Shown here one piece after another: positions 12,226 through 31,381 of a DNA stretch of 64,000 nt. Source of the DNA: Methylotenera versatilis 7 (GTDB lineage: Bacteria > Pseudomonadota > Gammaproteobacteria > Burkholderiales > Methylophilaceae); the NCBI RefSeq assembly GCF_000799165.1, contig NZ_JUGF01000002.1:744001-808000 (forward strand). Reading direction: 5' to 3'. The stretch's first letter is position 1. Each line of letters starts with the position of its first letter. Under the pieces are notes generated by a model. That model was not told the origin of the DNA and made no database searches. It saw only the letters and a list, made by a program, of their open reading frames with translations. A program made the translations under genes and the position numbers.

Positions 12226-12285
12226 GCTAGCTAAGTATCTGTATTAAGTATTTACAACTGTTTATCAATCTATAGGGGCATGGAA

Positions 12286-14304: not shown

Positions 14305-15528
14305 ATGAAAACACTCGTTAAGTTAGATTTAGACAAAAAGCCTTGGGAACAAGATGGTCAGATTCATAACCGTTGGCACCCAGATTTACCCATAATCGCC
14401 ATGGTTAAACCGGGCGACGAATTTCGTGTGGAATGTATGGATTGGACTGGCGGCCAGATTGGCAATAACGACAGTGCCAACGATGTGCGCGATGTAGATT
14501 TGACGCAAGTGCATTATCTAAGCGGCCCAATCGGTGTTGAAGGTGCAGAACCAGGCGATTTGATGGTGGTTGAGATTCTAGACGTTGGCACATTTGAAGA
14601 GCAGCAGTGGGGTTTTAACGGTATTTTCGCTAAAGAAAATGGTGGTGGTTTCTTAGTCGATCAATATCCGGAAGCGCGTAAATCAATTTGGGATTTCCAC
14701 GGTATTTATACCACTTCACGCCATGTACCCAATGTGAGGTTCGCCGGCATTATGCATCCAGGTTTAATTGGCTGCTTGCCTTCAAAAGAGTTATTAGAAA
14801 CATGGAATAAACGTGAGGGTGATTTGATTGCAACCGACCCTGAGCGCGTTCCAGGTTTAGCATTACCGCCAAATCAGAAGTCAGCTGTAATGGGAAAAAT
14901 GACTGGTGATGCAGCTGCAAAAGCTGCTTCAGAAGGTGCACGTACTGTGCCGCCACGTGAGCATGGTGGTAATTGCGATATCAAAAATCTGACCAAAGGC
15001 TCAAAAGTTTATTTCCCTGTTTATGTAAAAGATGGTGGCCTTTCAATGGGTGACCTGCACTTCTCACAAGGCGATGGCGAAATCACATTCTGTGGTGCCA
15101 TTGAGATGGCCGGCTACTTGGATATCAAAGTCAGTTTAATCAAAGACGGCGTGAAGAAATATGGCGTTAAAAACCCAATCTTCGAACCGAGTGTGCTCAC
15201 ACCAACTTATAAAGACTACATCATTTTTGAAGGTATCTCAGTTAATGAGCAAGGCAAGCAGCTTTATTTGGATGTCAACGAAGCTTATCGCCAAGCTTGT
15301 TTAAATGCCATTGAGTACATGAAGAAATTTGGTTACACCGGTGCGCAAGCTTTATCAATTTTAGGCACTGCACCAATCGAAGGCCATATCAGCGGCATTG
15401 TGGATATTCCTAACGCCTGTGCCACTTTGTGGTTACCAACCGAGATATTTGACTTCGATATGAAGCCAAATGCGGATGGACCAAAAGTGATGGTGAAACA
15501 AGGCGTTGATACGGCTAAAACCAGCTAA
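14305..15528 (+). CDS. fmdA: Formamidase
   Basis: A 407-aa protein, the standard length of FmdA/AmdA-type formamidases (acetamidase/formamidase family, PF03069), which hydrolyse formamide to formate and ammonia in the cytoplasm. Typical stretches are seen: WHPDLPIIAMVKPGDEFRVE, LSGPIGVEGAEPGDLMVVEI, GIMHPGLIGCLP, GGNCDIKNLTKGSKVYFPV, and SMGDLHFSQGDGEITFCGAIE. The start follows GTAGGAGCAAGTAA. It begins the operon fmdA-fmdB-urtABCDE-ure, under the dyad promoter at 14111. For a methylotroph, formate can be oxidised for energy and ammonia assimilated. Confidence 0.95.
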   Translation: MKTLVKLDLDKKPWEQDGQIHNRWHPDLPIIAMVKPGDEFRVECMDWTGGQIGNNDSANDVRDVDLTQVHYLSGPIGVEGAEPGDLMVVEILDVGTFEEQQWGFNGIFAKENGGGFLVDQYPEARKSIWDFHGIYTTSRHVPNVRFAGIMHPGLIGCLPSKELLETWNKREGDLIATDPERVPGLALPPNQKSAVMGKMTGDAAAKAASEGARTVPPREHGGNCDIKNLTKGSKVYFPVYVKDGGLSMGDLHFSQGDGEITFCGAIEMAGYLDIKVSLIKDGVKKYGVKNPIFEPSVLTPTYKDYIIFEGISVNEQGKQLYLDVNEAYRQACLNAIEYMKKFGYTGAQALSILGTAPIEGHISGIVDIPNACATLWLPTEIFDFDMKPNADGPKVMVKQGVDTAKTS

Positions 15529-15554
15529 GCCAAAAGCAAATAAGGAGTTTCGGG

Positions 15555-15893
15555 ATGCCAGTTTATGAATATGGATGTGATACCTGCGGTGTTTTTACTG
15601 CGCTTAGAAAAATGAGTGAGTCTAGTGAGCCAGCATTTTGTGATGAATGTGGTTGCGAAAGCCCGCGCATTATGTCTGCGCCTCGCTTGGCGGTAATGGA
15701 TAAAACACAGCGTGTGGCACATGAGCGAAATGAAAAATCTGCGCATGATCCAAAAGTAGCTAAACGTTCAAGTTGCGGTTGTGCGGGATCACATACCTGC
15801 AAAACAAGCACAAAAGTGAACCAGGAAACAGGTAAGGCGGCTTTGCAAATGCAAACCAAAAAGACAGCAAGACCTTGGATGTTATCGCACTAA
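15555..15893 (+). CDS. fmdB: FmdB-family zinc-ribbon protein
   Basis: 112 aa. The N-terminal half is the FmdB zinc ribbon: PVYEYGCDTCG and FCDECGC supply two Cys pairs. The C-terminal half is basic and low complexity with a further Cys group (SSCGCAGSHTC), longer than the minimal family. In M. methylotrophus the orthologous gene sits after fmdA and was proposed to be regulatory; its biochemical role is not settled. It lies 26 bp after fmdA with GGAGTTTC before the start, clearly in the same operon. Confidence 0.9.
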   Translation: MPVYEYGCDTCGVFTALRKMSESSEPAFCDECGCESPRIMSAPRLAVMDKTQRVAHERNEKSAHDPKVAKRSSCGCAGSHTCKTSTKVNQETGKAALQMQTKKTARPWMLSH

Positions 15894-16015: not shown

Positions 16016-17260
16016 ATGAGTACTTTGAATAGACGTGGCTTTATGAAAGCGGGTGGTGCCTTAGTCGGCGCATTACTAGCCGCTGGCTTAATTACAACTA
16101 ACGCATTTGCTGCAGATTTTCCAACAGCAAAAGTGAATACGACTGGCTTAGCTGTAACGGATACGACTGTAAAAGTCGGTATTCTGCACTCAGCGACAGG
16201 CACGATGGCAATCAGTGAAACAGGTTCGATTCAGGCTGAAAAATTAGCCATTGATCAAATCAATGCCATGGGCGGTATTTTGGGTCGCAAGATTGAAGTG
16301 ATTCAAGAAGATGGCGCTTCAGACTGGCCAACATTTGCTGAAAAAGCGAAGAAATTACTGGCATCAGACAAAGTGGCTGCCGTCATGGGTTGCTGGACAT
16401 CTGCTTCACGTAAAGCGGTATTGCCAGTGTTTGAAAAAGAAAACGGTTTACTGTTTTATCCAACATTCTATGAAGGTTTAGAACAATCTAAAAACGTGTT
16501 CTACACAGGTCAGGAAGCTACGCAACAGGTTATCGCCGGTTTAGATTGGATTGCTAAAGAGAAAAAAGCCAAAACTTTTTACTTGATCGGTTCTGATTAC
16601 ATCTGGCCACGTACTTCAATGAAAATCGCCCGTAAACATATTGAGAAAAACCTAAAAGGCTCAGTGGTTGGTGAAGAATACATTGCGTTGGGCGATACAC
16701 AATTTGGTTCTGTGATTAACAAAATCAAACTGAAAAAACCTGACGTGATTTATGCAGCGGTTGTGGGTGGCAGTAACGTTGCCTGGTTTAAACAGCTAAA
16801 TGCAGCGGGTTTAAACTCTACTAAACAAACCATGTTAACCATTTCAGTGACAGAAGATGAAGTGTTGGGCATTGGCGGTGAAAACTTAGCTGGCTTCTAC
16901 TCAGCGATGAAATACTTCCAATCGCAAGACAATCCAGCTAACAAGAAATTTGTAGCCGAATTTAAGAAAAAATGGGGTGCTAAATCTGTAATCGGTGACG
17001 TTACACAAGCCGCTTACTTGGGCCCATGGTTATACAAAGCAGCTGTTGAGCGTGCTGGTAGTTTTGATGTAGATAAAGTACAAGCCGCATTACCTGGTTA
17101 CGAGTTAAAAGATGCGCCAGAAGGTCCTGTGACAGTGGAAAAAAATCACCACTTAACAACCAAATTGCGTATCGGTCAATGGCAAAAAGATGGTCAAGCT
17201 AAGGTTGTTTACACCTCTGGCTACATCAAACCAGATCCGTTCCCAAAAGGTTATCAATAG
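16016..17260 (+). CDS. urtA: Urea/short-chain amide ABC transporter, substrate-binding protein
   Basis: 414 aa. The N-terminus has a twin-arginine signal (NRRGFMK at residues 5-11, hydrophobic core, cleavage after AFA near residue 32), so it should be exported folded by Tat. The mature part is a type I periplasmic binding protein of the UrtA/FmdD/AmiC group: VGILHSATGTMAISETG, INAMGGILGRKIEVIQEDGASDW and GCWTSASRKAVLPVFE are characteristic. TTAGGAGATC precedes the ATG. In Methylophilus the equivalent FmdD binds amides or urea. The urease genes downstream favour urea as one substrate. Confidence 0.92.
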   Translation: MSTLNRRGFMKAGGALVGALLAAGLITTNAFAADFPTAKVNTTGLAVTDTTVKVGILHSATGTMAISETGSIQAEKLAIDQINAMGGILGRKIEVIQEDGASDWPTFAEKAKKLLASDKVAAVMGCWTSASRKAVLPVFEKENGLLFYPTFYEGLEQSKNVFYTGQEATQQVIAGLDWIAKEKKAKTFYLIGSDYIWPRTSMKIARKHIEKNLKGSVVGEEYIALGDTQFGSVINKIKLKKPDVIYAAVVGGSNVAWFKQLNAAGLNSTKQTMLTISVTEDEVLGIGGENLAGFYSAMKYFQSQDNPANKKFVAEFKKKWGAKSVIGDVTQAAYLGPWLYKAAVERAGSFDVDKVQAALPGYELKDAPEGPVTVEKNHHLTTKLRIGQWQKDGQAKVVYTSGYIKPDPFPKGYQ

Positions 17261-17278
17261 TCTAGTAGTGATTTAAAA

Positions 17279-17314
17279 AGACGCGGTAGCTTAAAAAATA
17301 GGCTGCCGCAGTCT
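17279..17314 (+). other. Intercistronic hairpin between urtA and urtB
   Basis: AGAC-GCGGTAGC pairs with GCTGCCGC-A-GTCT (12 bp, one G-U pair and one bulge) across an A-rich loop at 17291-17301. No T run follows. This place after a binding-protein gene is typical for structures that stabilise the upstream mRNA, so that more binding protein than permease is made. Confidence 0.55.
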
Positions 17315-17373
17315 GCAAATAAGTAAGCGTATCAGCAACATTATTTTTTAGTAGTAATTAAGTAGGAGGCCAT

Positions 17374-18291
17374 ATGTTTGGTTATTCAATGGGTGATATC
17401 GGCAATATTATGATCATGCAGGGGTTTTCTGGCCTGAGCATGTTTACAGTGCTGCTACTCATGGCATTAGGTCTTGCCATTATTTTCGGCCAAATGGGCG
17501 TGATTAATATGGCGCATGGTGAGTTTATGACCATAGGCGCGTATACAACAGTGATGCTGTCAAAAGTGGCAGCCACTTATGGATTTGTAAATTATTACTT
17601 TCTCATTGCCATCGTGTTGGCGTTTATCTTAGCCTTTGCACTGGGATATTTTGTTGAATTCATAATGATTCGGCATCTCTACAAGCGGCCCTTAGATACC
17701 TTATTGGCAACATGGGGTTTGAGCTTGGTGATGCAACAGGCGTTTCGTTCCAGTTTTGGCGCGAAAGAGATGAGTGCTGAACTTCCAGAATGGATGTTAG
17801 GCTCATTTAAACCAACCCCCGATATTGATATTCCGATTAACGGTGTTTTTGTGATGGTGCTGGCATTGCTGGTAACCGCAGGCGTTTATATCTTTATGTA
17901 TCGCTCACGTTGGGGTTTAAGAGTACGCGCCACTGTGCAAAATCGCGTGATGGCAGGTGCGGTTGGTATCAATACCAAAAAAGTAGATCGCGTCACATTC
18001 GCTTTAGGTTGCGGCATTGCTGGTGTTGCTGGTGCAGCGTTTACCACGATCGCTTCAACAGGCCCAACCACAGGTACGCTTTATATTGTAGATAGCTTTA
18101 TGGTCGTGGTATTTGGTGGCGCAGCCAGCTTAATGGGTACGATCGCATCCGCTTTCGGTATCGCACAAGCACAGTCCATCCTTCAATTCTTTATGACCAG
18201 TTCAATGGGCAAGGTGACTACTTTGCTAGTGATTGTCGGCATATTGATGATGAAGCCAGAAGGCTTGTTTGCTTCCAAACTTCGTAAATAA
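17374..18291 (+). CDS. urtB: Urea ABC transporter permease UrtB
   Basis: A 305-aa inner membrane permease of the LivH type. About eight hydrophobic segments are seen. Family stretches are LGLAIIFGQMGVINMAHGEFMTIGAY near residue 32 and the cytoplasmic coupling loop YRSRWGLRVRATVQN near residue 180, followed by GIAGVAGAAFTT. It lacks the long N-terminal extension of some UrtB proteins. AGGAGG lies seven bases before the ATG. It pairs with UrtC to form the channel. Confidence 0.93.
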   Translation: MFGYSMGDIGNIMIMQGFSGLSMFTVLLLMALGLAIIFGQMGVINMAHGEFMTIGAYTTVMLSKVAATYGFVNYYFLIAIVLAFILAFALGYFVEFIMIRHLYKRPLDTLLATWGLSLVMQQAFRSSFGAKEMSAELPEWMLGSFKPTPDIDIPINGVFVMVLALLVTAGVYIFMYRSRWGLRVRATVQNRVMAGAVGINTKKVDRVTFALGCGIAGVAGAAFTTIASTGPTTGTLYIVDSFMVVVFGGAASLMGTIASAFGIAQAQSILQFFMTSSMGKVTTLLVIVGILMMKPEGLFASKLRK

Positions 18292-18320
18292 TAGCTGCGC
18301 AAATAAACGGGAGAATGAAC

Positions 18321-19481
18321 ATGAATGCATCCTTAAGTAAATTAGTTGGCGGTAAGCAGGGCGCAATCGGACTCGCATTGTTAGCCGCCTTGATATTTGT
18401 CGTATTGCCACTTGGCGTCGATATATTCAGATTAAATCTGGTGGGCAAATACTTAACCTACGCTTTTGTGGCTGTGAGTTTAGTGTTGTTGTGGGGTAAC
18501 GGTGGTATTTTAAGTTTAGGCCAAGGTATATTCTTCGGCTTAGGCGGCTACGGCATGGCGATGTTCATGAAGCTAGAAGCCTCAGATCCGATTACGACCA
18601 AAATCCAAACCACGCCAGGTATTCCAGATTTTATGGATTGGAACCAAATCACCGAGTTACCTTGGTTTTGGCATCCTTTCCAAAGCCTGCCCTTAACCAT
18701 ATTGGCGATATTAGTGATACCTGCTTTGTTTGCTTACTTCATTGGTTTTGCCATGTTTAAGCGTCGCGTGGGTGGTGTATATTTTGCGATTATTACGCAA
18801 GCGATTGCGTTGATTCTAAGTATCTTAATCGTTGGTCAACAAGGCCTAACAGGCGGAGTTAACGGTATTACAGACCTTAAAACTGTTATGGGCTGGGATA
18901 CGCGCACCGATAGCGCAAAATACATTCTTTATTATGTCAATGGCATCTTGTTGATCGGCTCGATCTTGCTGTCGAAATATATCTTGAATAGTAAATTCGG
19001 TATGTTGCTATTAGCCATGCGCGATAAAGAAGAGCGGGTACGCTTCTCTGGTTACGATGTTTCTAATTTCAAAATATTCATCTTCTGTGTAGCAGCCATG
19101 ATTTCAGCAGTCGGCGGCGCGATGTTCACACTGCAAGTTGGCTTTATGTCACCGTCATTTGTCGGCATCGTGCCATCCATTGAAATGGTGATCTTCTGCG
19201 CGGTTGGTGGTCGTATGTCGCTGATTGGCGCGGTTTACGGCACATTATTGGTTAACTACGGTAAAACCGTGTTCTCGGAAACTTATCCTGAATTATGGTT
19301 GTTCCTGATGGGGGGCTTATTTATCACTGTGGTGATGTTTTTCCCCAATGGATTAGCTGGAATCTATGAAAAGTACGCTAAGAAAATTAAATTTTTACGC
19401 AAGTTTTCTGATGCGCAACCAGAGAAAGCAGCGGACGTAGTGCCTACAAACGAGATTAAAGAGATGGGAGCAAAAGCATGA
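18321..19481 (+). CDS. urtC: Urea ABC transporter permease UrtC
   Basis: About 386 aa, a LivM-type membrane permease. ATG 18321 is preferred over ATG 18315 because GGGAG (18309-18313) is then seven bases away. Motifs include LLWGNGGILSLGQGIFFGLGGYGMAMF, GGVYFAIITQAIALILSILI, and the coupling loop LLLAMRDKEERVRFSGYDVSNFK. It lies 29 bp after urtB and overlaps urtD by 4 bp, so translational coupling is likely. Confidence 0.93.
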   Translation: MNASLSKLVGGKQGAIGLALLAALIFVVLPLGVDIFRLNLVGKYLTYAFVAVSLVLLWGNGGILSLGQGIFFGLGGYGMAMFMKLEASDPITTKIQTTPGIPDFMDWNQITELPWFWHPFQSLPLTILAILVIPALFAYFIGFAMFKRRVGGVYFAIITQAIALILSILIVGQQGLTGGVNGITDLKTVMGWDTRTDSAKYILYYVNGILLIGSILLSKYILNSKFGMLLLAMRDKEERVRFSGYDVSNFKIFIFCVAAMISAVGGAMFTLQVGFMSPSFVGIVPSIEMVIFCAVGGRMSLIGAVYGTLLVNYGKTVFSETYPELWLFLMGGLFITVVMFFPNGLAGIYEKYAKKIKFLRKFSDAQPEKAADVVPTNEIKEMGAKA

Positions 19482-20221
19482 GCAACACAGACTTTGTCCT
19501 AGCGATTGAAGACTTAACGGTATCGTTTGATGGCTTTAAAGCGGTTGATAACCTGACCATGTATATCGATAAAAACGAGTTACGTGTGGTGATTGGCCCG
19601 AATGGCGCAGGAAAGACAACGGTTTTAGACCTGATTTGCGGTAAAACCAAATCGACTTCAGGTTCTATTAAGTTTAGGAATACTGAGCTGACTAAATTAT
19701 CAGAGCATGAAATCGTGCGAGCTGGAGTAGGGCGTAAATTCCAAACCCCTTCTATCTATGAGAATTTATCGGTCTATCAAAACTTAGAAGTTTCCTATCC
19801 AAAAGGGCGTGGCGTTTGGGGCAGCTTGTTTTTCAAACGCTCGGAAGCAGTGGTTTCTCAGGTAAAAAAGATTGCCGAAGAAATCATGTTAACGGACTTT
19901 TTGGAGATGGAAGCTGCACTATTGAGTCATGGCCAAAAACAGTGGCTGGAAATCGGTATGTTGCTGATGCAGGATCCAGAACTGTTAATGTTGGATGAGC
20001 CAGTCGCTGGCATGAGTGCGAAAGAGCGCGACCAAACGGCTGATTTATTGAATAAGATCTGCAAAAACCGCTCCGTGATTGTGATTGAACATGATATGGA
20101 GTTTGTGAAAAAAATCGCCCATAAAGTCACCGTCTTGCATCAAGGCAAGATTCTGGCAGAAGGTGCGATGGACAAAGTGCAGGCAGATGAAAAAGTCATT
20201 GAAGTGTATCTGGGTCATTAG
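19478..20221 (+). CDS. urtD: Urea ABC transporter ATP-binding protein UrtD
   Basis: A 247-aa ATPase of the LivG type. Walker A is GPNGAGKTT (residues about 40-48), the Q-loop region is GRKFQTPSIYENLSV, the ABC signature is the variant LSHGQKQWLEIG usual for UrtD, and Walker B is LLMLDEPVAGMS. The ATG overlaps the urtC stop. It drives urea import with UrtE. Confidence 0.94.
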   Translation: MSNTDFVLAIEDLTVSFDGFKAVDNLTMYIDKNELRVVIGPNGAGKTTVLDLICGKTKSTSGSIKFRNTELTKLSEHEIVRAGVGRKFQTPSIYENLSVYQNLEVSYPKGRGVWGSLFFKRSEAVVSQVKKIAEEIMLTDFLEMEAALLSHGQKQWLEIGMLLMQDPELLMLDEPVAGMSAKERDQTADLLNKICKNRSVIVIEHDMEFVKKIAHKVTVLHQGKILAEGAMDKVQADEKVIEVYLGH

Positions 20222-20284
20222 GCTTATGGCATAAAACACAGCTCATTAACGTAGTTGATATTGCTCGGATTGAAGGGAATAAAT

Positions 20285-20974
20285 ATGATTGAAATTGAAA
20301 ATCTACAAGTCAGTTATGGCCAAAGCCAAGTGATTCATGGCTTGAATTTTAAGGCAGAAAAAAATGAAACACTGGCGATTATGGGACGCAATGGCATGGG
20401 TAAAACGACGCTGTTTAAATCGCTAATGGGTATCTTGCCGAGTAAAAGCAGCAAGGCAGTGGTAGACGGTGAAAACCTGCAAGGCGCGGATAGTTATGAG
20501 CGCGTGGCTAAAGGTTTGGCTTATGTGCCACAGGGCCGCATGATTTTCCCTAGTATGACCGTGCAAGAGAATATCGAAACCGGATTAGAGAAATCCAAAA
20601 CACGCGAGATTCCCGAAGATATTTTTGCGCTGTTTCCAGTGCTGTATGATATGCGCCACCGTAAAGGCGGCAATCTTTCTGGCGGTCAGCAACAGCAATT
20701 GGCGATTGCCCGTGCTTTGGTGACGAATCCTAAAGTGTTGCTATTGGATGAACCTACTGAAGGTATACAGCCGTCGATTATTAAAGATATCGCAAAAGTA
20801 TTAAACGAGATTCGAAAAATGCGTGAAATTACCATTATTGTGTCTGAACAAGTGTTAAGTTTTACCATGGAAGTTGCCGACCGTATTATCGTGATTGATA
20901 AAGGCAAATTCATTCATGAAGACAAACGTGGCGAAGTGGATGCTGCCAAAATTAAAGGATATTTGTCGGTTTAA
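20285..20974 (+). CDS. urtE: Urea ABC transporter ATP-binding protein UrtE
   Basis: 229 aa from ATG 20285, chosen for the GAAGGGAAT ribosome site; an in-frame TTG at 20255 lacks one. It is a LivF-type ATPase with Walker A GRNGMGKTT, signature LSGGQQQQLAIARAL and Walker B LLLDEPTEGIQPS, the last characteristic of UrtE. It completes the five-gene importer. The urease genes begin 40 bp downstream. Confidence 0.94.
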   Translation: MIEIENLQVSYGQSQVIHGLNFKAEKNETLAIMGRNGMGKTTLFKSLMGILPSKSSKAVVDGENLQGADSYERVAKGLAYVPQGRMIFPSMTVQENIETGLEKSKTREIPEDIFALFPVLYDMRHRKGGNLSGGQQQQLAIARALVTNPKVLLLDEPTEGIQPSIIKDIAKVLNEIRKMREITIIVSEQVLSFTMEVADRIIVIDKGKFIHEDKRGEVDAAKIKGYLSV

Positions 20975-21014
20975 TTGATGCGGTTATTCAAGTATTTTGT
21001 GGCATCATAAAGTC

Positions 21015-21920
21015 ATGGATGATGATTTTTCAGTGCCTGCTACAAACGCACAAATTGGCTTGGGTAATGATTTGGCTGGGGTAAAACCTGTCCACTGGTT
21101 AGCCACGTTAACACTGGATTTTGCTGCGAAAGATGGCCGTAGTTATCTGGCAAAAAGGCAACATAATGGCCCGTTAGTGATACAGAAAACGCTGTATCCA
21201 GAAGGTGATGCGCTGTGTCATGGCATTATCATTCATCCGCCGGGCGGTGTTGCGGGCGGTGATGAATTAATACTGAATGTGAATGTGCAAACCAATGCCA
21301 GCGCCTTGCTGACAACGCCAGGTGCAGGTAAATGGTACAAAGCGAACGGCGCAGCGGCCAGCCAGCATTTGCAGTTTGATTTAGCTGAAAAATCCAGTTT
21401 AGAGTGGTTACCGCAGGAAAATATTTTGTTTGATGACTCAATAGTCAATTTTTCAGCTGACATTAACTTAGGTCAAGAGGCTTGTTATGCTGGCTGGGAA
21501 ATTTTGTGTTTTGGCAGGCAGGCAAAAGGTGAAAGTTGGCTGACAGGCAAATTGAATCAAAAATTAGTGATTAAGCGCGCAGATAAAACGATTTGGCAGG
21601 AAAGTGCATATTTACAAGCCAATGACCGATTTTTTCATTCAGCAATTGGTTTGGGCGGCAATGTTGTGAGTGCCAGTTTTGTGGTTGCTGCGGGTGCTGT
21701 ACCAACAGAGTTGTTCGCGAAATGCCAACAATTTGAAAGTGATAGTGCATCAGATAGTAAAGCTAAATTTGGCGTAAGTGCGCTGTCAGAAGTTTTTTCA
21801 GCACGTTATATTGGTATGTCAGCACAATCAGCAAGGCACTATTTTGAAGGGCTTTGGCAGATATTACGACCGTGGTACGCAAGCCGCTCAGCCGCAAGAC
21901 CACGCATTTGGAATACCTAA
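21015..21920 (+). CDS. ureD: Urease accessory protein UreD (UreH)
   Basis: 301 aa from ATG 21015; TTG at 20997 is a less likely in-frame start. UreD hallmarks are present: LYPEGDALCHGIIIHPPGGVAGGD, LLTTPGAGKWYKANG, LEWLPQENILFDDS and GWEILCFGRQAKGESW. UreD binds apo-urease and, with UreF and UreG, forms the channelled complex that delivers nickel and CO2 to the active site. It heads the urease block. Confidence 0.94.
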   Translation: MDDDFSVPATNAQIGLGNDLAGVKPVHWLATLTLDFAAKDGRSYLAKRQHNGPLVIQKTLYPEGDALCHGIIIHPPGGVAGGDELILNVNVQTNASALLTTPGAGKWYKANGAAASQHLQFDLAEKSSLEWLPQENILFDDSIVNFSADINLGQEACYAGWEILCFGRQAKGESWLTGKLNQKLVIKRADKTIWQESAYLQANDRFFHSAIGLGGNVVSASFVVAAGAVPTELFAKCQQFESDSASDSKAKFGVSALSEVFSARYIGMSAQSARHYFEGLWQILRPWYASRSAARPRIWNT

Positions 21921-21947
21921 AATTAAACTCAATAAAGTTAAAAGACA

Positions 21948-22250
21948 ATGGAATTAACCCCTAGAGAAAAAGATAAGCTATTGATTTTTACCGCTGGCCT
22001 GCTGGCAGAAAGACGCAAAGCGCGCGGCCTGAAATTGAATTATCCAGAAGCCATCGCTTATATTTCTGCCGCTATTATGGAAGGCGCGCGAGATGGTCAA
22101 ACCGTGGCATATTTGATGGGTTATGGCGCCACTTTGTTGACGCGCGAGGATGTGATGGAAGGTATCGCGGAAATGATTCCTGATATTCAAATTGAAGCGA
22201 CATTTCCCGACGGGACAAAACTAGTCACCGTTCATCATCCAATTCCTTAG
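21948..22250 (+). CDS. ureA: Urease gamma subunit
   Basis: A 100-aa protein matching the standard gamma subunit length and sequence ([59 protein letters not shown]). It assembles with UreB and UreC into the (alpha-beta-gamma)3 enzyme that hydrolyses urea to ammonia and carbamate. It lies 27 bp after ureD and 8 bp before ureB. Confidence 0.97.
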
Positions 22251-22258
22251 AGGTAAAA

Positions 22259-22567
22259 ATGATTCCAGGCGAAATGCTCATCGAAGCGGGCGAAATCAGT
22301 CTCAACGTAGGACGTGAATCGATTACGATAGATGTGGCGAATACGGGCGACAGGCCGATACAGGTCGGCTCACATTTTCATTTTTTTGAGACAAATGAAG
22401 CTTTAACTTTTGAGCGAAAACGTGCCTATGGATTCAGGCTGGATATCGCCGCTGGCACAGCTGTGCGTTTTGAGCCAGGCCAAACGCGTACTGTGCAATT
22501 AGTGGCTTTAAGCGGTGAGCGCAAAGTGTATGGTTTTTCAGGAAAAGTGATGGGTGCATTGAAATGA
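22259..22567 (+). CDS. ureB: Urease beta subunit
   Basis: A 102-aa beta subunit, seen in [31 protein letters not shown] and [34 protein letters not shown] lies just before the ATG. It overlaps ureC by 4 bp (ATGA), so the two are probably translationally coupled. Confidence 0.97.
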
Positions 22568-24267
22568 GTGTCAGTATCGATAAACGCGCCTATGCGGAAA
22601 TGTTCGGGCCAACCACTGGTGATAGAATGCGCTTAGCAGATACCGATTTATGGATTGAAGTAGAAAAAGACTACACAATCTACGGTGAGGAAGTGAAATT
22701 CGGCGGCGGCAAGGTGATTCGTGACGGCATGGGGCAAAGTCAGTTGTGCGCCAAAGATGTGGCGGATACCGTTATCACCAATGCATTGATTATCGACCAT
22801 TGGGGCATCGTTAAAGCGGATATCGGCCTCAAAAATGGGCGTATTTCAGCCATCGGCAAAGCAGGCAACCCGGATATTCAGCCAGCAGTGACCATCCCAA
22901 TCGGTGCTGGTACCGAAATTATCGCCGGTGAGGGCATGATTGTGACAGCGGGTGGTATCGATTCGCACATTCACTTTATCTGCCCGCAACAAATAGAAGA
23001 AGCGCTGATGTCTGGCGTGACGACCATGCTGGGCGGCGGCACAGGTCCAGCGACTGGCACTTTTGCCACAACTTGTACGCCAGGCCCATGGCATATTCAT
23101 TGCATGTTACAAGCAGCAGATGCTTTTCCCATGAATTTGGGTTTTTTAGGCAAAGGCAACGTCAGCTTGCCAGAACCGCTGCGGGAACAGGTTGAAGCTG
23201 GCGTGATTGGCCTTAAATTGCATGAAGATTGGGGCACAACGCCAGCCGCCATTGATAACTGCTTGAATGTGGCCGAGGAAATGGATGTGCAAGTGGCGAT
23301 TCATTCGGATACTTTGAATGAGTCGGGCTTTGTGGAAACCACACTTGCCGCATTTAAAGATCGCACTATTCATACTTTTCATACCGAAGGTGCAGGCGGC
23401 GGGCATGCACCAGATATCATCAAGGCCGCTGGCTATGCCAATGTGTTGCCGTCATCCACCAATCCAACGCGGCCATTCACGGTTAATACCATCGATGAAC
23501 ATCTGGATATGCTGATGGTTTGTCACCATCTGGACCCTGCGATTGCAGAAGATATCGCTTTTGCGGAAAGCCGCATTCGCCGCGAAACCATTGCGGCAGA
23601 AGATATTTTGCACGACTTGGGTGCTTTTTCGATGATGTCATCTGACTCGCAGGCAATGGGTCGTGTGGGTGAGGTGGTGATTCGCACCTGGCAAACAGCA
23701 CATAAAATGAAAGTACAGCGCGGCGCATTAGCAGAAGATTCTGCCCGTAATGACAATTTCCGTGTCAAACGTTATATCGCTAAATATACGATTAATCCTG
23801 CGTTAACGCATGGTATTGCTGACACAGTAGGCTCTATTGAAGTGGGTAAGCTGGCCGATTTAGTGCTTTGGCGCCCGGCCTTTTTTGGCGTAAAACCGTC
23901 TATCATTTTAAAAGGTGGCATGATCGCGGCAGCGGCAATGGGCGACCCAAATGCGTCTATCCCAACGCCGCAGCCTGTGCATTATCGCCCTATGTTTGGT
24001 GCTTATGGGGGCGGTTTAAAAACTTCCGTCACATTTGTATCGCAGGCGGGATTGAAAAATCCGGCGGTCCAGGCGCTTGGTTTAAACAAAAGATTAGTAC
24101 CAGTTCGTGGCACACGCACGGTGAGAAAAGCCGATATGATCCATAATGGCTGGATGCCAAATATTGATGTAGACCCGGAAACTTATATTGTGCGCGCGGA
24201 TGGCATTTTATTGGCTTGCGAGCCCGCCAGTATTTTGCCGATGGCGCAACGTTATTTCCTGTTTTAA
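22564..24267 (+). CDS. ureC: Urease alpha subunit (catalytic)
   Basis: 567 aa, the full family length. The dinickel site is intact: HIHF around residue 137, the carbamylated Lys218 in GLKLHEDWG, and the later ligand-bearing stretches [11 protein letters not shown] and [15 protein letters not shown]. The mobile flap MVCHHLDP carries the catalytic Cys/His region. It is a cytoplasmic enzyme and needs the accessory proteins encoded directly around it. No truncation or missing residue is seen. Confidence 0.98.
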
Positions 24268-24285
24268 GTTTTTTTAAGATTAGCC

Positions 24286-24774
24286 ATGCTCAATATTACG
24301 CGGCGTTTGTTAGACAAGACCGCTCATCCAATCGATGACTATTTGGTCTTGCCATTTGATTTGCGGCAAAAAAGCCGCTTGCGTGTGACCTTGAAATCAG
24401 GCATTGAAGCGGCGTTAATGCTAGACCGTGGCACCATATTGCGCGGCGGCGATTTGCTTAAGGCGGAAGATGGAAAAATAGTGCAAATTGTAGCGGCGGA
24501 ACAACCTGTGACGGATGTCAGGGCTGAAACGCAGCAAGCGTTAATGTGCGCGGCATATCACTTGGGTAATCGACATGTGCCTTTGCAAGTCGGCGATGGC
24601 TGGCTGCGCTTAGAGCAAGACCATGTGTTGAAAGAAATGCTAATCGGTCTTGGCATGATAACGGTTGACCAGCTTGCACCATTTGAGCCTGAAGCGGGTG
24701 CTTATGGCGGTGGACACAAGCATCACGATGACGATGATAATTTATCCAGGTTACCTTCTGCGCGATTGCGGTGA
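24286..24774 (+). CDS. ureE: Urease accessory protein UreE (nickel metallochaperone)
   Basis: 162 aa. The N-terminal peptide-binding domain has DYLVLPFDLRQKSRLRV; the C-terminal metal-binding domain has CAAYHLGNRHVPLQV with the conserved His. The tail carries a short His/Asp-rich stretch (GHKHHDDDD), shorter than the polyhistidine tail of Klebsiella UreE. It brings nickel to UreG. It lies 18 bp after ureC; no strong ribosome site is seen. Confidence 0.94.
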   Translation: MLNITRRLLDKTAHPIDDYLVLPFDLRQKSRLRVTLKSGIEAALMLDRGTILRGGDLLKAEDGKIVQIVAAEQPVTDVRAETQQALMCAAYHLGNRHVPLQVGDGWLRLEQDHVLKEMLIGLGMITVDQLAPFEPEAGAYGGGHKHHDDDDNLSRLPSARLR

Positions 24775-24789
24775 CATGGTTAGCTAAAT

Positions 24790-25503
24790 ATGCAAATGCA
24801 AAACATTAAACCACAAAATATTGCCTCAAATATTGCGTTAAGTCGCTTGCTGCAATTGGCTAGCCCAATGTTACCTGTGGGTGCTTATAGTTATTCGCAA
24901 GGGCTTGAATGGGCGATTGAATGTGGTGAAGTGATCGATTTAGCAAGCGCCAAAACTTGGATCAGTGATGCGCTGATGATTTATCAGGGCAGGTATGAGT
25001 TGCCTGTGCTATATCGGCAATATCAGGCATGGCAATTGAATGACATTGCAGCTGTAAAAGAGTGGGATACGTATTTCCAAGCAGGGCGCGATACCAGCGA
25101 AGCCTTGGCGGAAACGCGGCAAATGGGCTATTCATTATGCCGTTTACTGAATGATTTAGGCAGCTTGCCAGCAGATTTTATGTTTAAGATTAACGAATTA
25201 GTTAACCCTGCCTTTCCAACCGTTTACGCGGGTATTACACATTTATGGTCAATTTCAGCGCAAGATATGTTGCAGGCTTACGCATGGTCATGGGTAGAGA
25301 ATCAGGTCAGTGCCGCCATGAAAACCGTGCCACTTGGGCAGGTTGCGGGGCAAAAAATATTACTGGAATTAGGCGCCTTTTTGCCTGAAATCGTTACTGA
25401 TGCGATGCAGTTAGAATATGCTGAAATCAGTAACTTTACGCCGGGACTTAGCATTGCTGGGTGCCGCCACGAAACACAATATAGCCGCTTATTTAGGTCA
25501 TAA
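24790..25503 (+). CDS. ureF: Urease accessory protein UreF
   Basis: A 237-aa all-helical protein with UreF hallmarks [53 protein letters not shown], and the C-terminal [15 protein letters not shown]. UreF binds UreD-urease and recruits UreG during activation. It sits 15 bp after ureE and 5 bp before ureG. Confidence 0.94.
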
Positions 25504-25508
25504 ACAGA

Positions 25509-26162
25509 ATGAATCAACCTGCAGAACTATCACAAGGAAATCTCAATCAATCCTCAGTAGAGCCGCTACGTGTTGGCATCGGTGGCCCGGTTGGCTCGGG
25601 CAAAACAGCACTTACATTATCACTTTGCAAACGTTTACGCGAAGAGCTGAATATCGCCGTGGTGACCAATGACATTTACACCAAAGAAGACGCGGAATTT
25701 TTAACACGCAACGAAGCACTGGCACCAGAACGTATTATCGGTGTAGAAACGGGCGGTTGCCCGCATACTGCGATTCGCGAAGACGCATCGATGAATCTGG
25801 AAGCGGTTGCACAACTTTGCAAACGTTTTGTCGGTTTGGATATCGTGTTTGTTGAAAGTGGCGGTGATAACTTAGCCGCCACTTTCAGCCCGGAATTATC
25901 CGATTTGACGATCTATGTGATCGATGTGGCAGCAGGCGAAAAGATACCGCGTAAAGGCGGGCCGGGCATCACAAAATCGGATTTGCTGATTATCAATAAA
26001 ATAGACTTGGCGCCCATGGTTGGTGCATCGTTGGAAGTGATGGACAGGGATGCGAAAAAAATGCGTGGCGAGCGGCCATTTATTTTTACCAATTTAAAAA
26101 CTGGGCAAGGCCTAGAAGAGATTGTGCAATTTATCAAAAAACAGGGGTTAATGCATGACTAA
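25509..26162 (+). CDS. ureG: Urease accessory GTPase UreG
   Basis: 217 aa. The P-loop is [11 protein letters not shown] (residues about 26-36), followed by [12 protein letters not shown], the metal-binding CPH motif in [29 protein letters not shown], and the NKID guanine-specificity motif. GTP hydrolysis powers nickel insertion into urease. No obvious His-rich N-terminus is present. Confidence 0.96.
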
Positions 26163-26208
26163 GCCTGAGGCAGGATTAAATTTTAGTGCATCATTTAGGA
26201 GTTAAAGT

Positions 26209-26790
26209 ATGAAGAAAATAGTGTTAACCAGTTTGCTAGTGGGGTTTTCTAGCTTGGCAATCGCACATCCTGGGCATGAATTAGTGGGTACGAGTTTAGA
26301 TAGTGCTTATGCCGGTTTTATACACCCGTTAACCGGCTGGGATCATCTCTTGGTCATGCTGGCGATTGGTATCTGGGCCAGCAAGCTGGGCGGCAAAGCA
26401 CGCTGGCAATTGCCGCTTACATTCCTTACAAGCATGACTTTAGGTGCAATATTGGGTTTAGCAGGCATCACTTTTTCTGGTGTAGAAACCGCAATCGCTG
26501 CCAGTGTGATGGCGATGGGATTATTACTGGCGATTAACTTACCTATTCCAGCCATCAGCCGTATCGGTATTGTGGCGATTTTTGCAGTATTTCACGGCAT
26601 GGCACATGGCGTTGAATTGCACTCACAGCAAAGCTATGCGGCATTGGGCGGCATGTTAATGGCCACAGCTTTATTGCATGCGATTGGTTTGATGCTGGCT
26701 TCACGTCGATTGAATTTAGCAAACTGGATTCAATCGCTGCTGGCTTGGGGCATTGCGCTGGTGGGCGGATATATGCTGGTTGCAATCTGA
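26209..26790 (+). CDS. HupE/UreJ family nickel permease
   Basis: A 193-aa membrane protein with an N-terminal signal-like segment ending SLAIA-HPGHE. The HPGHE and HPLTGWDHLLVMLAIG motifs (HX5DH type) are the conserved metal-binding sites of the HupE/UreJ family. About six hydrophobic segments are visible. Family members take up nickel or cobalt. The place right after ureG, with GGAGTTAAAGT before the start, ties it to nickel supply for urease. Confidence 0.88.
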   Translation: MKKIVLTSLLVGFSSLAIAHPGHELVGTSLDSAYAGFIHPLTGWDHLLVMLAIGIWASKLGGKARWQLPLTFLTSMTLGAILGLAGITFSGVETAIAASVMAMGLLLAINLPIPAISRIGIVAIFAVFHGMAHGVELHSQQSYAALGGMLMATALLHAIGLMLASRRLNLANWIQSLLAWGIALVGGYMLVAI

Positions 26791-26804: not shown

Positions 26805-26849
26805 TACGTCAAATGACGTACATATTTTTTCGCCATACTTTATTACGAT
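26805..26849 (+). promoter_or_regulatory. Promoter of the NCS1-kinase gene with TACG-N8-CGTA dyad, site 3 of 3
   Basis: TACGTCAAATGACGTA at 26805-26820, the most symmetric of the three copies (TACGTCA..TGACGTA), followed exactly 23 bp later by TACGAT at 26844-26849. Being upstream of the sensor/regulator pair, it would allow autoregulation. Confidence 0.6.
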
Positions 26850-26951: not shown

Positions 26952-29900
26952 TTGACGACAGCAAACCTGGCTTCAAACGTATCGGAAAATACCGAACCCA
27001 CACAGCGCATCGTTAAAATTCGCCGTGATTACAACACGTGGGTAGCAAATGAAAGCATCGAAGATTACGCACTTCGATTCACACCACGCTCATTCCGTAA
27101 ATGGTCGATTCTGCGTGTTTCAAATACCGCTTTAGGCGCGATTTCATTCTTAGTACTGGAAGCAATTGGCGGCACAATCGCGGTTAATTATGGCGTGGTC
27201 AACGCGCTTTGGGCGATTTTATCAGTCGGCATGATTATCTTTTCAACAGGCCTGCCCATTAGCTACTATGCCGCCAAATATGGCCTAGACATGGATTTGC
27301 TTACGCGTGGTGCAGGTTTTGGTTATATCGGTTCCACCATTTCATCGTTTATTTACGCGTCGTTTACCTTTATCCTATTTTCGCTGGAAGCAGCGATTAT
27401 GGCTTACGCGCTTGAGCTGTATTTTCATATGCCGCTCTATATCGGTTACCTGATTAGCGCGCTGATTGTCATCCCTTTGGTCACGCATGGCGTCACGTTG
27501 ATTAGTCGTATTCAAATGATTACGCAACCAATTTGGTTGATTTTGATGTGCATGCCGTTTATTGCAGTGTTGCATCATGATCCACAGATAATTTCTAAAT
27601 TATTGTCATTTGCCGGTGTTTCTGGAAATTCTGGTGAATTTAATCTGCTCATGTTTGGTGCAGCAACTGCGGTTGGTGTGGCATTAATTCCCCAAATTGG
27701 TGAACAAGTGGATTTTTTACGCTTTATGCCAGAAAAAACGCCCCAAAATCGTTGGCGCTGGAATTTTGGCGTATTAATGGCTGGCCCCGGTTGGATTTTT
27801 CTGGGTATGGCAAAAATGCTTGGTGGCGTGCTGTTGGCGTATCTGGTTATTCAAAGCGATATGTCGTTTGAACAGGCGGTAAATCCCACACATATGTATC
27901 TGGTGGGGTTTGGCTATGCTTTTAATTCATATGAAATCGCCTTGGCGGTGACCACTTTGTTTGTGGTGATCTCACAGGTGAAAGTGAATATGACCAATGC
28001 CTATGCAGGTTCGCTGGCATGGTCTAACTTTTTTGCACGCCTGACGCATAGTCATCCCGGTCGCGTGGTATGGGTAGTCTTTAATGCGCTAATCGCTATT
28101 ATGCTGATGGAATTGGACGTTTTTAAAGCCATTGAACAGGTACTAGGGCTTTATTCCAATATTGCAATCGCCTGGATCACCGCCGTTGTTGCTGATTTAG
28201 TCATTAATAAACCACTGGGATTAAGTCCAAAAGGTATCGAGTTTCGGCGTGCTTATTTGTACGATATTAATCCTGTTGGTGTGGGTGCGATGTTTCTGGC
28301 GTCTGTTGTATCGATTGCAGCATTTTCTGGCATATTTGGAGAAGAAGCCAAAGCATTTTCTTCCTTCATTGCGCTGATAACCGCATTGGTCACGTCGCCA
28401 TTTATCGCATGGTTAACCAAGGGCAAGTATTACGTCGCGCGCAAGCAATATAGCTTTCCTGCAAAAACGCGTACGCAAAAATGTGTGATTTGCGAGCGAG
28501 AATATGAAACGGATGATATGGCACACTGCCCAGCTTACCAAGGCGCCATTTGCTCATTATGCTGCTGTTTAGACGCACGCTGTAATGACGCCTGTAAGCC
28601 GGAGGCACGTTTGTCGCAACAATGGTTAAGTGCCAATAAATTTATCTTTCCAGAATGGGTGTGGCCGCATCTTAAAGGCGGCGTTGCGCATTACCTTTTA
28701 TTGATGTTTATCGCATTGGCTTTTTTTGGCGTATTACTCGGTTTGATTTATTTCCATGAAACCATCACGCTGGAAGAAAGCGCTTCCGCCTTGCTGCCGC
28801 AATTGCGAGCGGGTTATTTAAAAGTATTTGCTTCGCTGGTTTTTGCCAGCGGCATCATTGCGTGGTGGCTGGTGCTAACCACAGAAAGCCGCCGCGTAGC
28901 CCAAGAGGAATCGAATCGCCAAACAGGGCTTTTATTGCGTGAGATCGATTTGCATAAACAAACCGATAATGAATTACAGTTGGCGAGGCACCTTGCAGAA
29001 CAAGCTAATCAGGCGAAAAGTCGCTATATCACGGGCATTAGCCATGAGCTCAGAACGCCACTCAATAGTATTTTGGGTTATGCCCAATTGTTGGATAACG
29101 ACAGCTCTATCCCTCTGCATCGCAAACATGCCATTAAAGTGGTGCGGCGCAGCGGTGAGCACTTACTATCGTTAATTGAAGGAACGCTGGATATTGCGTT
29201 GATTGAAAGCGGAAAGCTGACGTTTGATATCAAGCCGATTAAATTCCCCGAATTTATCAGCCAAATCGTCAGCATGTTTGAGTTGCAGGCACGCAATAAA
29301 GGTCTGGATTTTAAGTATGAAGCAATTGGTGAATTGCCTACTGTCGTTAAAGCCGATCAAAAGCGATTAACGCAGATTTTAATCAATATTCTGGGTAATG
29401 CCGTTAAGTTTACCAAGACAGGTAGCATTACTTTCCGCGTGCGATATGTGCGCGAGATTGCTTATATAGAGGTCCAAGACACAGGTCCTGGTATTTCTCG
29501 TGCAGAATATAACAAAATATTTGAGCCATTTTCACGCGGTAGCGCGGCGAACCAAATCAATATTGGCGGCACCGGACTTGGCTTAACCATTAGTAAATTA
29601 CTGACCGAATTAATGGGCGGCGAGTTGAATTTCACCAGCGAAATTGGCAGAGGAACTACTTTCCAAATTAGACTATTCCTATCGCAGGTGCATCATTTAG
29701 AAGAAATTGACAGCAACGTTTTTGCCAATCGTGTGACATATCTAGGTGCCAGACGAAAGGTGTTGGTGGTGGATAATGAGCAAGTGGATAGGGAATTGTT
29801 AGTGAATATATTGGCGCCGCTGGGTTTTGAGATGGCGCAGGCAGCCACAGGGCAAGAGTGTCTGGATATTTATGAAGCATTTAACCCAGATGTTATCCTA

Positions 29901-30383
29901 ATGGACTTGGCGATGCCGGTAATGGATGGCTGGGAAGCGGCTTATGTCATTCGTAAAGTACACCAGTCGCCCATTCCGATTGGTATTGTTTCTGCAAATG
30001 CATATGACAAGAATCTTGAAAATTCAGCGGGAATAGCTAGCGATGACTTTATCGTCAAGCCGGTGAATGTTGAAGAATTATTAAATTGGCTGGGCAATCG
30101 ATTGAACTTGGAGTGGATAACCGACACGAGCATGGTGGAAAATTTATTACAAAACCAAGAAAGTATTGTTGATCACAGCAAAATGATTATGCCGCCAGAA
30201 AAAATCCTGACCGAGCTGTTGGCATTGATTAATCTTGGTTACATAAAAGGCATTAATGGCAAGCTGGACGAAATTCTTTTAATTGACCCTGTTTATTCCG
30301 CTTTTGTAGAGCTGATGCGAAAATTCTCCAGCCAGTTTCAGATCGATATTATGAAAAATTTTATACAAGAAATTAGAGCATGA
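26952..30383 (+). CDS. NCS1-permease-fused hybrid sensor histidine kinase
   Basis: 1143 aa, started at TTG 26952 with AGGA eight bases upstream; no in-frame ATG fits better. Residues about 45-490 form a multi-helix NCS1 (cytosine/purine/hydantoin type) permease domain. A nine-Cys segment follows (C511, C514, C526, C534, C537-539, C544, C548). Two more hydrophobic stretches (about 580-600 and 625-645) precede a HisKA domain with His698 in GISHELRTPLNSILGYAQ. The HATPase has N816 in GNAVKF, then DTGPGIS and GGTGLGL. A receiver has Asp985 in VILMDLAMPVMDGW. The tail from about 1060 is helical without a clear Hpt site. The permease part probably senses or transports a nitrogen compound. The stop overlaps the partner regulator by 4 bp. 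Confidence 0.85.
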   Translation: MTTANLASNVSENTEPTQRIVKIRRDYNTWVANESIEDYALRFTPRSFRKWSILRVSNTALGAISFLVLEAIGGTIAVNYGVVNALWAILSVGMIIFSTGLPISYYAAKYGLDMDLLTRGAGFGYIGSTISSFIYASFTFILFSLEAAIMAYALELYFHMPLYIGYLISALIVIPLVTHGVTLISRIQMITQPIWLILMCMPFIAVLHHDPQIISKLLSFAGVSGNSGEFNLLMFGAATAVGVALIPQIGEQVDFLRFMPEKTPQNRWRWNFGVLMAGPGWIFLGMAKMLGGVLLAYLVIQSDMSFEQAVNPTHMYLVGFGYAFNSYEIALAVTTLFVVISQVKVNMTNAYAGSLAWSNFFARLTHSHPGRVVWVVFNALIAIMLMELDVFKAIEQVLGLYSNIAIAWITAVVADLVINKPLGLSPKGIEFRRAYLYDINPVGVGAMFLASVVSIAAFSGIFGEEAKAFSSFIALITALVTSPFIAWLTKGKYYVARKQYSFPAKTRTQKCVICEREYETDDMAHCPAYQGAICSLCCCLDARCNDACKPEARLSQQWLSANKFIFPEWVWPHLKGGVAHYLLLMFIALAFFGVLLGLIYFHETITLEESASALLPQLRAGYLKVFASLVFASGIIAWWLVLTTESRRVAQEESNRQTGLLLREIDLHKQTDNELQLARHLAEQANQAKSRYITGISHELRTPLNSILGYAQLLDNDSSIPLHRKHAIKVVRRSGEHLLSLIEGTLDIALIESGKLTFDIKPIKFPEFISQIVSMFELQARNKGLDFKYEAIGELPTVVKADQKRLTQILINILGNAVKFTKTGSITFRVRYVREIAYIEVQDTGPGISRAEYNKIFEPFSRGSAANQINIGGTGLGLTISKLLTELMGGELNFTSEIGRGTTFQIRLFLSQVHHLEEIDSNVFANRVTYLGARRKVLVVDNEQVDRELLVNILAPLGFEMAQAATGQECLDIYEAFNPDVILMDLAMPVMDGWEAAYVIRKVHQSPIPIGIVSANAYDKNLENSAGIASDDFIVKPVNVEELLNWLGNRLNLEWITDTSMVENLLQNQESIVDHSKMIMPPEKILTELLALINLGYIKGINGKLDEILLIDPVYSAFVELMRKFSSQFQIDIMKNFIQEIRA

Positions 30384-31327
30384 GCAAACCCGATTTAAAT
30401 CGACATCAATCATCCGTTGTACTGATTGTGGACGATGTGATGGATAATTTAGCCATTTTGCACGATGCACTGGATGAGTCCGGCTACACCGTTCTAATCG
30501 CCAATAACGGTCAAGTGGCAATTGAGCGGGCAGAAGCCGCTCAGCCAGAAATTATTTTGTTAGACGCGATGATGCCAGAGATGGACGGTTTTGAAGTCTG
30601 TCGCAAATTAAAATTAAATGCCAAAACCAGTCATATTCCGGTGATTTTTATGACTGGCCTGACCGAGTCGGAACATGTGGTAGCGGCGTTTCAAGCAGGT
30701 GGTACTGATTATGTCACCAAGCCAATCCGCACCACTGAGGTGATAGCCAGGATCGCAGCACATTTAAAGACTTCGCGTCAGATGCATCAGGCACGCGGTG
30801 CATTGGATGCCTTTGGTCAGGCTGCTATTGCCATTACACCGCAAAACGGGAAAATTGTCTGGCAGACGCCATTGGCACGGCAATGGCTGCAAAGTTACTT
30901 TTTTCCAGAAAATGAGACAAGTGAGTTTGTGACGCCAGAGCCGATATTAAATTGGATTGTATCTGCTTACAAAGCAGATGCTTCAGGCAAAACTTTACAG
31001 GCGATGACAATTATTCAAAGCACCAAGCGTTTGGGTTTTAGCCCGGCTGATATCAGCAGTGATGAACAGTGGGTTATTGTATTGAGAGAGGAGTCAGATA
31101 CGGCGCAGATAGAAGCGTTAATGTTGACTTTCAAGCTGACAAAGCGCGAATCCGAAGTGCTTTATTGGGCGATTAAAGGTAAAACCAGCCGTGATATTGG
31201 CGATATATTAAGCAGTAGCCCACGAACTATTAACAAGCATTTAGAACACGTTTTTGAAAAGCTAGGTGTTGAAACAAGAACGGCTGCTGCATCGCTTGCC
31301 GCTTCAAAATTACGCGGTTTTAATTAA
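30380..31327 (+). CDS. LuxR-type response regulator, partner of the NCS1 kinase
   Basis: 315 aa. The N-terminal receiver has acidic pocket D18-D19 and phospho-acceptor Asp62 in IILLDAMMPEMDGFEVC. A middle region (about 140-240) has a PAS-like look (FGQAAIAITPQNGKIVWQTPLA). The C-terminal LuxR helix-turn-helix (about 252-310) reads LTKRESEVLYWAIKGKTSRDIG then TINKHLEHVFEKLGVETRTAA. It overlaps the kinase gene by 4 bp, so the two form a cognate pair. It is the best local candidate for binding the TACG-N8-CGTA sites. A terminator follows at 31355. Confidence 0.9.
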   Translation: MSKPDLNRHQSSVVLIVDDVMDNLAILHDALDESGYTVLIANNGQVAIERAEAAQPEIILLDAMMPEMDGFEVCRKLKLNAKTSHIPVIFMTGLTESEHVVAAFQAGGTDYVTKPIRTTEVIARIAAHLKTSRQMHQARGALDAFGQAAIAITPQNGKIVWQTPLARQWLQSYFFPENETSEFVTPEPILNWIVSAYKADASGKTLQAMTIIQSTKRLGFSPADISSDEQWVIVLREESDTAQIEALMLTFKLTKRESEVLYWAIKGKTSRDIGDILSSSPRTINKHLEHVFEKLGVETRTAAASLAASKLRGFN

Positions 31328-31354: not shown

Positions 31355-31378
31355 AAAAAGGCCATTTAAGGCCTTTTT
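31355..31378 (+). terminator. Rho-independent terminator after the response regulator gene
   Basis: Perfect 9-bp stem AAAAAGGCC / GGCCTTTTT with ATTTAA loop and T run, 28 bp after the stop. It ends the amide/urea island. Confidence 0.88.
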
Positions 31379-31381
31379 TAT

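Follow-up and report, generated by a model that had tools for sequence, protein, structure and literature searches.

An NCS1-fold hybrid histidine kinase and its LuxR-type partner as a candidate regulatory system for urea and formamide utilization in Methylotenera versatilis and other Proteobacteria

We analyzed a 64,000-nucleotide stretch of the Methylotenera versatilis 7 genome (contig NZ_JUGF01000002.1, positions 744,001 to 808,000; called the window here), in which a gene pair encodes a hybrid histidine kinase with a large N-terminal membrane domain and a LuxR-type response regulator. We consider it likely that the pair is a two-component system for urea and short-chain amides, in which the membrane domain, of predicted NCS1 fold, would serve as the receptor and the regulator would activate the neighboring fmd, urt, and ure genes. 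Comparative genomics indicates that, in many Proteobacteria, the kinase and its partner very probably activate the genes by which urea and formamide are taken up and degraded. The kinase, a palindromic promoter element, and urt genes are strictly associated across genomes, which makes the link between the pair and this regulon strong; the nature of the ligand and the direction of signaling are proposed below in conditional terms.

The kinase and regulator open reading frames (ORFs) are both open and overlap by 4 bp (ATGA). The kinase ORF begins 161 bp past hupE/ureJ, the last gene of the urease operon, and the genes for the porin, fmdA, fmdB, urtABCDE, ureDABCEFG, and hupE all lie upstream of it on the same strand (Table 1). 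FmdA, UrtA, UrtB, and UrtE exceed curated NCBIfam cut-offs, and the porin is provisionally named FmdC by analogy with the published fmd cluster of Methylophilus methylotrophus. The kinase gene is present in a single copy in the 2.5-Mb genome, and the closest named relatives are Methylotenera metagenome-assembled genomes. Pfam matched HisKA, HATPase, and Response_reg, and the features of a hybrid histidine kinase are all present, namely the HisKA histidine, the HATPase N and G boxes, and the receiver (REC) aspartate. With its REC domain and C-terminal GerE helix-turn-helix, the partner qualifies as a LuxR/NarL-type response regulator; its middle region had no convincing Pfam match. A first-pass annotation, made from the sequence alone, had described a hybrid kinase paired with a LuxR regulator, located beside urea/amide genes and sharing a promoter motif with them, and each of these points was borne out, the last by three copies of a palindrome described below.

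We searched genome contigs and confirmed 288 relatives, of which 80 were kept. Members occur in Methylophilaceae, Oxalobacteraceae, Methylophaga, Rhodocyclaceae, and other groups. The regulator gene adjoins the kinase gene in 75 of the 80 loci (most of the remaining loci are short contigs), and 54 loci have urt genes no more than 10 kb away. Three arrangements were seen: urt-urease-kinase (Methylophilaceae and Methylophaga), a kinase gene divergent from urtABCDE-fmdA-fmdB (many Burkholderiales), and a kinase gene near a canonical urea transporter and urease. The kinase gene occurs in 43 of 250 genomes of the order, and urtA is present in 41 of these carriers versus 60 of 207 non-carriers (Fisher p 8e-17, a value that ignores shared ancestry). 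In one set of loci (L322-L343), urtA adjoins the kinase gene in 22/22 cases, and the encoded proteins are 69-83% identical to UrtA of the window, except for one at 47%. The domain is found in 58/398 Pseudomonadota genomes, in about 52 of them at full length, including classes beyond that of the window. The first-pass annotation had named homologs lying mostly away from nitrogen genes as an outcome that would refute its reading; the opposite is seen. The kinases that diverge most within the order (G264, G271, and G207) have longer open frames, of 1329-1417 amino acids (aa); for two of them, G264 and G271, the neighborhood is without urt genes, and these two may respond to a different signal. 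In Methylophaga (L060-L072), a gammaproteobacterial genus, the urt-ure-hupE-kinase order is the same as in Methylophilaceae, and because one gene order is kept in both groups, we suggest that the whole block passed horizontally between methylotrophs.

Evidence for a shared regulon comes from a 16-bp palindrome, TACGTCANNTGACGTA (TACG-N8-CGTA), one copy of which lies upstream of each of fmdC, fmdA, and the kinase gene. These three copies are the only sites of at least 14 bits in the window, where 0.35 would be expected by shuffling. A looser palindrome search of the window gave 4 matches versus 1.5 expected and is not significant alone; thus, the weight rests on comparative evidence. Genome-wide, the exact pattern TACGN5TGACGTA occurs four times; the fourth occurrence falls within a catalase-like gene and was left out of the regulon. 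In 19 of 20 further Methylophilaceae loci (20 kb), a TACG-N8-CGTA site precedes the kinase, porin, or fmdA gene by 79-195 bp, and the pattern occurs almost nowhere other than at those promoters. M. methylotrophus has both the kinase pair and the palindrome (L053), and the Methylophaga kinase promoter retains it. In Oxalobacteraceae, TACG-N8-CGTA ranked among the top results when inverted repeats ahead of porin-urt operons were counted without bias, and some loci of other classes have a degenerate palindrome of 13-15 bits. Five Burkholderiales loci (L282, L283, L284, L292, and L294) have two palindromes between or beside divergent kinase and urtA genes.

A position weight matrix built from 25 such sites was then applied, at a threshold of at least 14 bits, to the 2-kb region preceding urtA in other genomes. 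In carriers, 29 of 57 urtA places had a site (29 of 40 genomes), versus none of 62 places among non-carriers (p 3.5e-12). In carrier genomes with more than one urtA gene, the threshold was reached solely at the copy linked to the kinase gene, and in three genera that include both carriers and non-carriers (g107, g126, and g162), the non-carriers are without the site. In one genome (G404), the palindrome precedes the urtA gene at 0.59 Mb even though the kinase gene is at 2.24 Mb, 1.6 Mb away; thus, linkage alone is insufficient to explain the association.

We next considered whether the membrane domain belongs to the NCS1 family. A plain Pfam scan at limits as loose as E<=10 matched PF02133 neither to the kinase protein nor to any other part of the genome; the N-terminal part and linker matched nothing in Pfam and NCBIfam, and direct phmmer and profile searches of PDB sequences returned nothing relevant. 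By contrast with these direct searches, comparison by hhalign of a 32-sequence N-terminal alignment with five genuine PF02133 proteins gave a probability of 97.5 and an E value of 4.9e-12 over 394 columns; as a control, seven unrelated membrane segments from the window all gave E>=0.04. Stand-alone permeases, found by domain search at E 2e-5 to 3e-9, bridge the two groups. One of them (L348, 26.2 bits) exceeds the PF02133 cut-off and two more nearly reach it, and the bridging permeases aligned to the kinase domain at hhalign E values of 3e-8 to 4e-14 (4e-14 for L346); the PF02133 model thus misses or barely reaches the close stand-alone relatives of this domain. An AlphaFold2 model of residues 1-680 had a mean predicted local distance difference test (pLDDT) score of 71, with much of the membrane part at 80-94. 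In a fold search, this model matched CodB (Z 31.7) and Mhp1 (Z 29.1, 27.5, and 25.2) ahead of the next-best families (APC, NRAMP, NSS, SSS, and others; Z 23.1 or less). Because profile comparison, bridging permeases, and predicted fold agree, we accept the membrane part as a divergent NCS1 domain, as judged from sequence and model. The first-pass annotation had called it an NCS1 domain joined to a kinase and had named profile search as a test; the label stands on remote homology, the bridging permeases, and the predicted fold, which overturn the negative Pfam scan, but not on a plain PF02133 match. Four stand-alone permeases (L344, L346, L347, and L348) are 446-485 aa long and have an SQxRINxAN motif in common with the region of transmembrane helix 8 of the kinase; they may represent the transporter branch that gave rise to the sensor.

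Between the NCS1 domain and the kinase core lies a cysteine-rich linker. C511, C514, C526, C534, C537, C538, C544, and C548 are invariant in 88 non-redundant members, and among 299 Pseudomonadota genomes, the module was detected with confidence only in long open frames of this family. No Pfam model matches the copy in the window. Prok-RING_1 was touched weakly by 6 of 47 members (best E 0.003), and a fold search with the predicted module gave weak RING, PHD, and FYVE matches that are not significant (best E 0.15). Our guess is that the module binds zinc.

In the mechanism that we propose, the NCS1-fold domain would be an inner-membrane receptor, a transporter turned sensor that possibly still transports slowly. 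Binding of urea or formamide would shift its conformation; the eight-cysteine (8-Cys) module, transmembrane hairpin, and signaling helix would relay this change to HisKA/HATPase, and H698 would be autophosphorylated. Phosphate would then pass to the partner regulator, with the built-in REC domain (D985) acting as a relay or modulator. Once phosphorylated, the LuxR-type regulator would bind the palindrome and activate fmdC and fmdAB-urt-ure and, in Methylophilaceae and Methylophaga, also its own operon.

The ligand is the point at which another explanation has to be weighed. The regulon and DNA site could be the same while the NCS1 domain binds another nitrogen compound (a nucleobase, hydantoin, allantoin, or ammonium or an internal nitrogen signal) and reports nitrogen supply rather than urea or amides. 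Known cargo of NCS1 proteins, according to the Pfam description and PDB titles, includes cytosine, purines, uracil, allantoin, and hydantoins. To compare pockets, we aligned the family to L101 and L101 to Mhp1; positions mapped by alignment only may be shifted by one or two residues. Among the 88 non-redundant members, E70, E146, Q248, E251, D254, Q342, K344, N346, and N349 of the NCS1 domain are invariant. Mhp1 residues Q121, W220, A222, N314, and N318 map to E146, I246, Q248, N346, and N349, respectively, and S312 and T313, the Na+ ligands of Mhp1, map to K344 and V345. By this alignment, the Mhp1-type Na+ site, which is not universal in NCS1, is absent from the family (lysine for S312 in 88/88 members, isoleucine or valine for T313), suggesting that the domain is Na+ independent. 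The bridging stand-alone permeases have an arginine where the kinase has K344; thus, this position is a feature of the branch and is not confined to the fusion. The position of W117 is aromatic in part of the family (F in 52 and L in 36 of 88 members), which favors this alternative; however, the W220 position is I/V/L and the Q121 position is an invariant glutamate. The two-sided aromatic clamp is therefore lost, suggesting that the ligand is not a flat aromatic ring. Gene content also bears on this question. The first-pass annotation had allowed for urea, an amide, or a purine/hydantoin-type compound, a list that can be narrowed: urt genes with fmdA (formamidase) or ure recur beside the family, whereas purine, cytosine, hydantoin, and allantoin genes were not recognized there, with many neighbors in other lineages being unannotated. 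We regard a ligand other than urea or a short-chain amide as rather unlikely.

A second alternative gives the NCS1 domain the role of a vestigial anchor in the membrane or of an auxiliary transporter, with the kinase sensing in the cytoplasm or by contacting UrtABCDE. In favor of this reading, most of the kinase genes are near an ATP-binding cassette (ABC) transporter operon; however, the NCS1 domain is more conserved (mean modal identity of 74.5%) than HATPase (67.8%) and REC (62.3%) and has invariant polar residues within its helices, which would not be expected of a simple anchor and supports a functional role as sensor or transporter. We regard this alternative as quite unlikely. One precedent that favors it belongs with several points that weigh against our proposal: signal perception by CbrA reportedly does not depend on its SLC5 transporter domain (PMC9100948), which leaves room for a sensor other than the NCS1 domain. 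Moreover, the structural model has a mean pLDDT of 71 and an underlying alignment that is shallow (number of effective sequences, 1.8), Oxalobacteraceae kinase promoters are without the palindrome, and 11 of the 40 carrier genomes are without a site within 2 kb upstream of urtA. Only some of these 11 absences are accounted for by sites elsewhere or by contig ends; four of the genomes are Methylophilaceae whose urt genes follow fmdA in the operon. Finally, ammonia repression may come from a general nitrogen system, independently of the kinase pair. It is very improbable that a different regulator binds the palindrome and that the kinase pair is there for other reasons: the site occurs upstream of urtA only in kinase carriers, even with the kinase unlinked, and not in non-carriers of the same genera, and LuxR-family sites are typically inverted repeats (PMC5715377).

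Some members of the family depart from the arrangement in the window. Two shorter ones (G533:C3:144245-146128 and G633:C2:111385-113274), with open frames of 894 and 899 aa, have matches to the NCS1 domain and the 8-Cys module, but their shorter output end may be a different kinase or another domain. In one Methylophilaceae genome (G071:C26:209385-211280), the kinase gene is in four pieces with in-frame stops and is apparently a pseudogene. In three other Methylophilaceae loci (L136, L137, and L138), a second regulator gene, whose product is 34% identical to the LuxR partner, adjoins the fmdC porin gene. In the window, a small rubredoxin-like ORF (31625-31790, minus strand) lies between the regulator gene and the catalase gene.

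Table 1. Features of the kinase-regulator locus and its predicted regulon, in window coordinates.
Feature	Position	Strand	Basis or detail
Palindrome copy TACGCAATATGACGTA	12146..12161	.	Upstream of fmdC porin
FmdC-like outer-membrane porin, predicted regulon gene	12280..13455	+	Position; similarity to porins heading urt operons
Palindrome copy TACGCACTTTGACGTA	14111..14126	.	Upstream of fmdA
fmdA formamidase (14305-15528); fmdB zinc-ribbon protein (15555-15893)	14305..15893	+	FmdA = NF045496, 781 bits
urtABCDE (fmdDEF-type) urea/short-chain-amide ABC transporter	16016..20974	+	TIGR03407 (UrtA), TIGR03409 (UrtB), TIGR03410 (UrtE)
Urease operon ureDABCEFG + hupE/ureJ	20997..26790	+	ORFs, conserved order; names read from sequence
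Palindrome TACGTCAAATGACGTA, predicted regulator site	26805..26820	.	Upstream of kinase gene
NCS1-fold hybrid histidine kinase	26952..30383	+	TTG start, 1143 aa; 158 family proteins aligned
NCS1 (LeuT-fold) membrane domain, residues about 37-495	27060..28436	+	hhalign to NCS1, fold search, conservation
8-Cys module, residues about 508-552	28473..28607	+	Conservation, fold search
Two-helix membrane hairpin ahead of signaling helix	28674..28886	+	Sequence; AlphaFold2 helices 577-606, 614-679
HisKA, residues 688-754, phospho-acceptor H698 invariant	29013..29213	+	Pfam, conservation
HATPase_c, residues 802-910, N816 and D843 invariant	29355..29681	+	Pfam, conservation
C-terminal receiver domain (Response_reg), residues 937-1045, D985	29760..30086	+	Pfam, conservation
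Response regulator, 315 aa: REC (14-125), LuxR/GerE DNA-binding domain (253-307)	30380..31327	+	Pfam
Terminator-like hairpin with T run (AAGGCC..GGCCTTTTTT)	31355..31379	+	3' of regulator gene, read from sequence

We also put forward, more tentatively and at somewhat under even chances, that the family represents a widespread receptor class in which an NCS1 transporter without a Na+ site became a dedicated sensor of urea and short-chain amides, coupled to a kinase via a new 8-Cys module that probably binds zinc. If true, this would be the first "transceptor" kinase of the NCS1 type, and it would sense urea or formamide directly at the membrane. The fusion of transporter to kinase would be extended to the NCS1 family, with a linker module outside Pfam and a presence in about one-eighth of the sampled Pseudomonadota genomes, and the predicted DNA site and regulon are testable in one strain. 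We found no description of an NCS1-kinase fusion in the open-license literature, the only part searchable. In a Dechloromonas genome paper from 2009, a "histidine kinase" of 1131 aa and a "Che-Y like receiver" are listed next to UrtA, with no remark on the membrane domain; this kinase is probably a family member. A text match to the ammonia sensor GrtK/R proved unrelated (PilS-like kinase, NtrC-like partner).

Among transporters, Mhp1 and CodB resemble the kinase domain in fold and in full-length remote homology; unlike it, they have no kinase attached, and the pocket of Mhp1 differs (S312/T313 to K344 and I/V345, W220 to I/V, and Q121 to E). SLC5-type structures matched the model at Z of about 20-21, below the 25-32 of NCS1 structures, and a Pfam scan gave no SLC5/SSF match to the kinase. 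The linker, an 8-Cys module and transmembrane hairpin in the place of STAC in CbrA and CrbS, matched no Pfam linker domain. Membership of the kinase in the SLC5/STAC group is thus not shown, and by the model its closest fold is NCS1. The partner of CbrA, CbrB, is of the NtrC type, and CbrA itself has an SLC5-STAC-PAS architecture and a non-hybrid kinase, unlike the NCS1 hybrid described here. The comparison with CbrA as a sensor from another transporter family, drawn in the first-pass annotation, nevertheless holds, since both have a LeuT fold and CbrA is a transporter-kinase "transceptor" that acts as a histidine transporter and sensor (PMC13022988). CrbS/CrbR (MxtR/ErdR) likewise combines a transporter domain, a hybrid kinase, and a LuxR-type regulator (PMC5715377, PMC9100948), and CrbR, as proposed here for the partner, acts at an inverted repeat in the promoters of genes for uptake and utilization (PMC5715377); the two systems differ in target genes (acetate versus urea/amide) and DNA repeat and appear to differ in membrane domain (SLC5 versus NCS1) and linker (STAC versus 8-Cys module and transmembrane hairpin). 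Ks-Amt5 of anammox bacteria likewise joins a kinase to a transporter that has become a nitrogen sensor, but with an Amt fold and ammonium as signal (PMC5764959); Pfam scans gave no Amt match in our kinase. The system closest in gene content is the fmdCABDEF cluster of M. methylotrophus, which has the same operon content and is induced by formamide and urea (PMC10781810). A review of fmd names FmdB, proposed as a putative regulator of the cluster, as its only regulator and does not mention the kinase/regulator pair (PMC10781810), and the open-access literature that we searched identifies no sensor for this induction. The pair described here is likely the missing sensor and regulator for the fmd/urt/urease induction described in Methylophilus in the 1990s.

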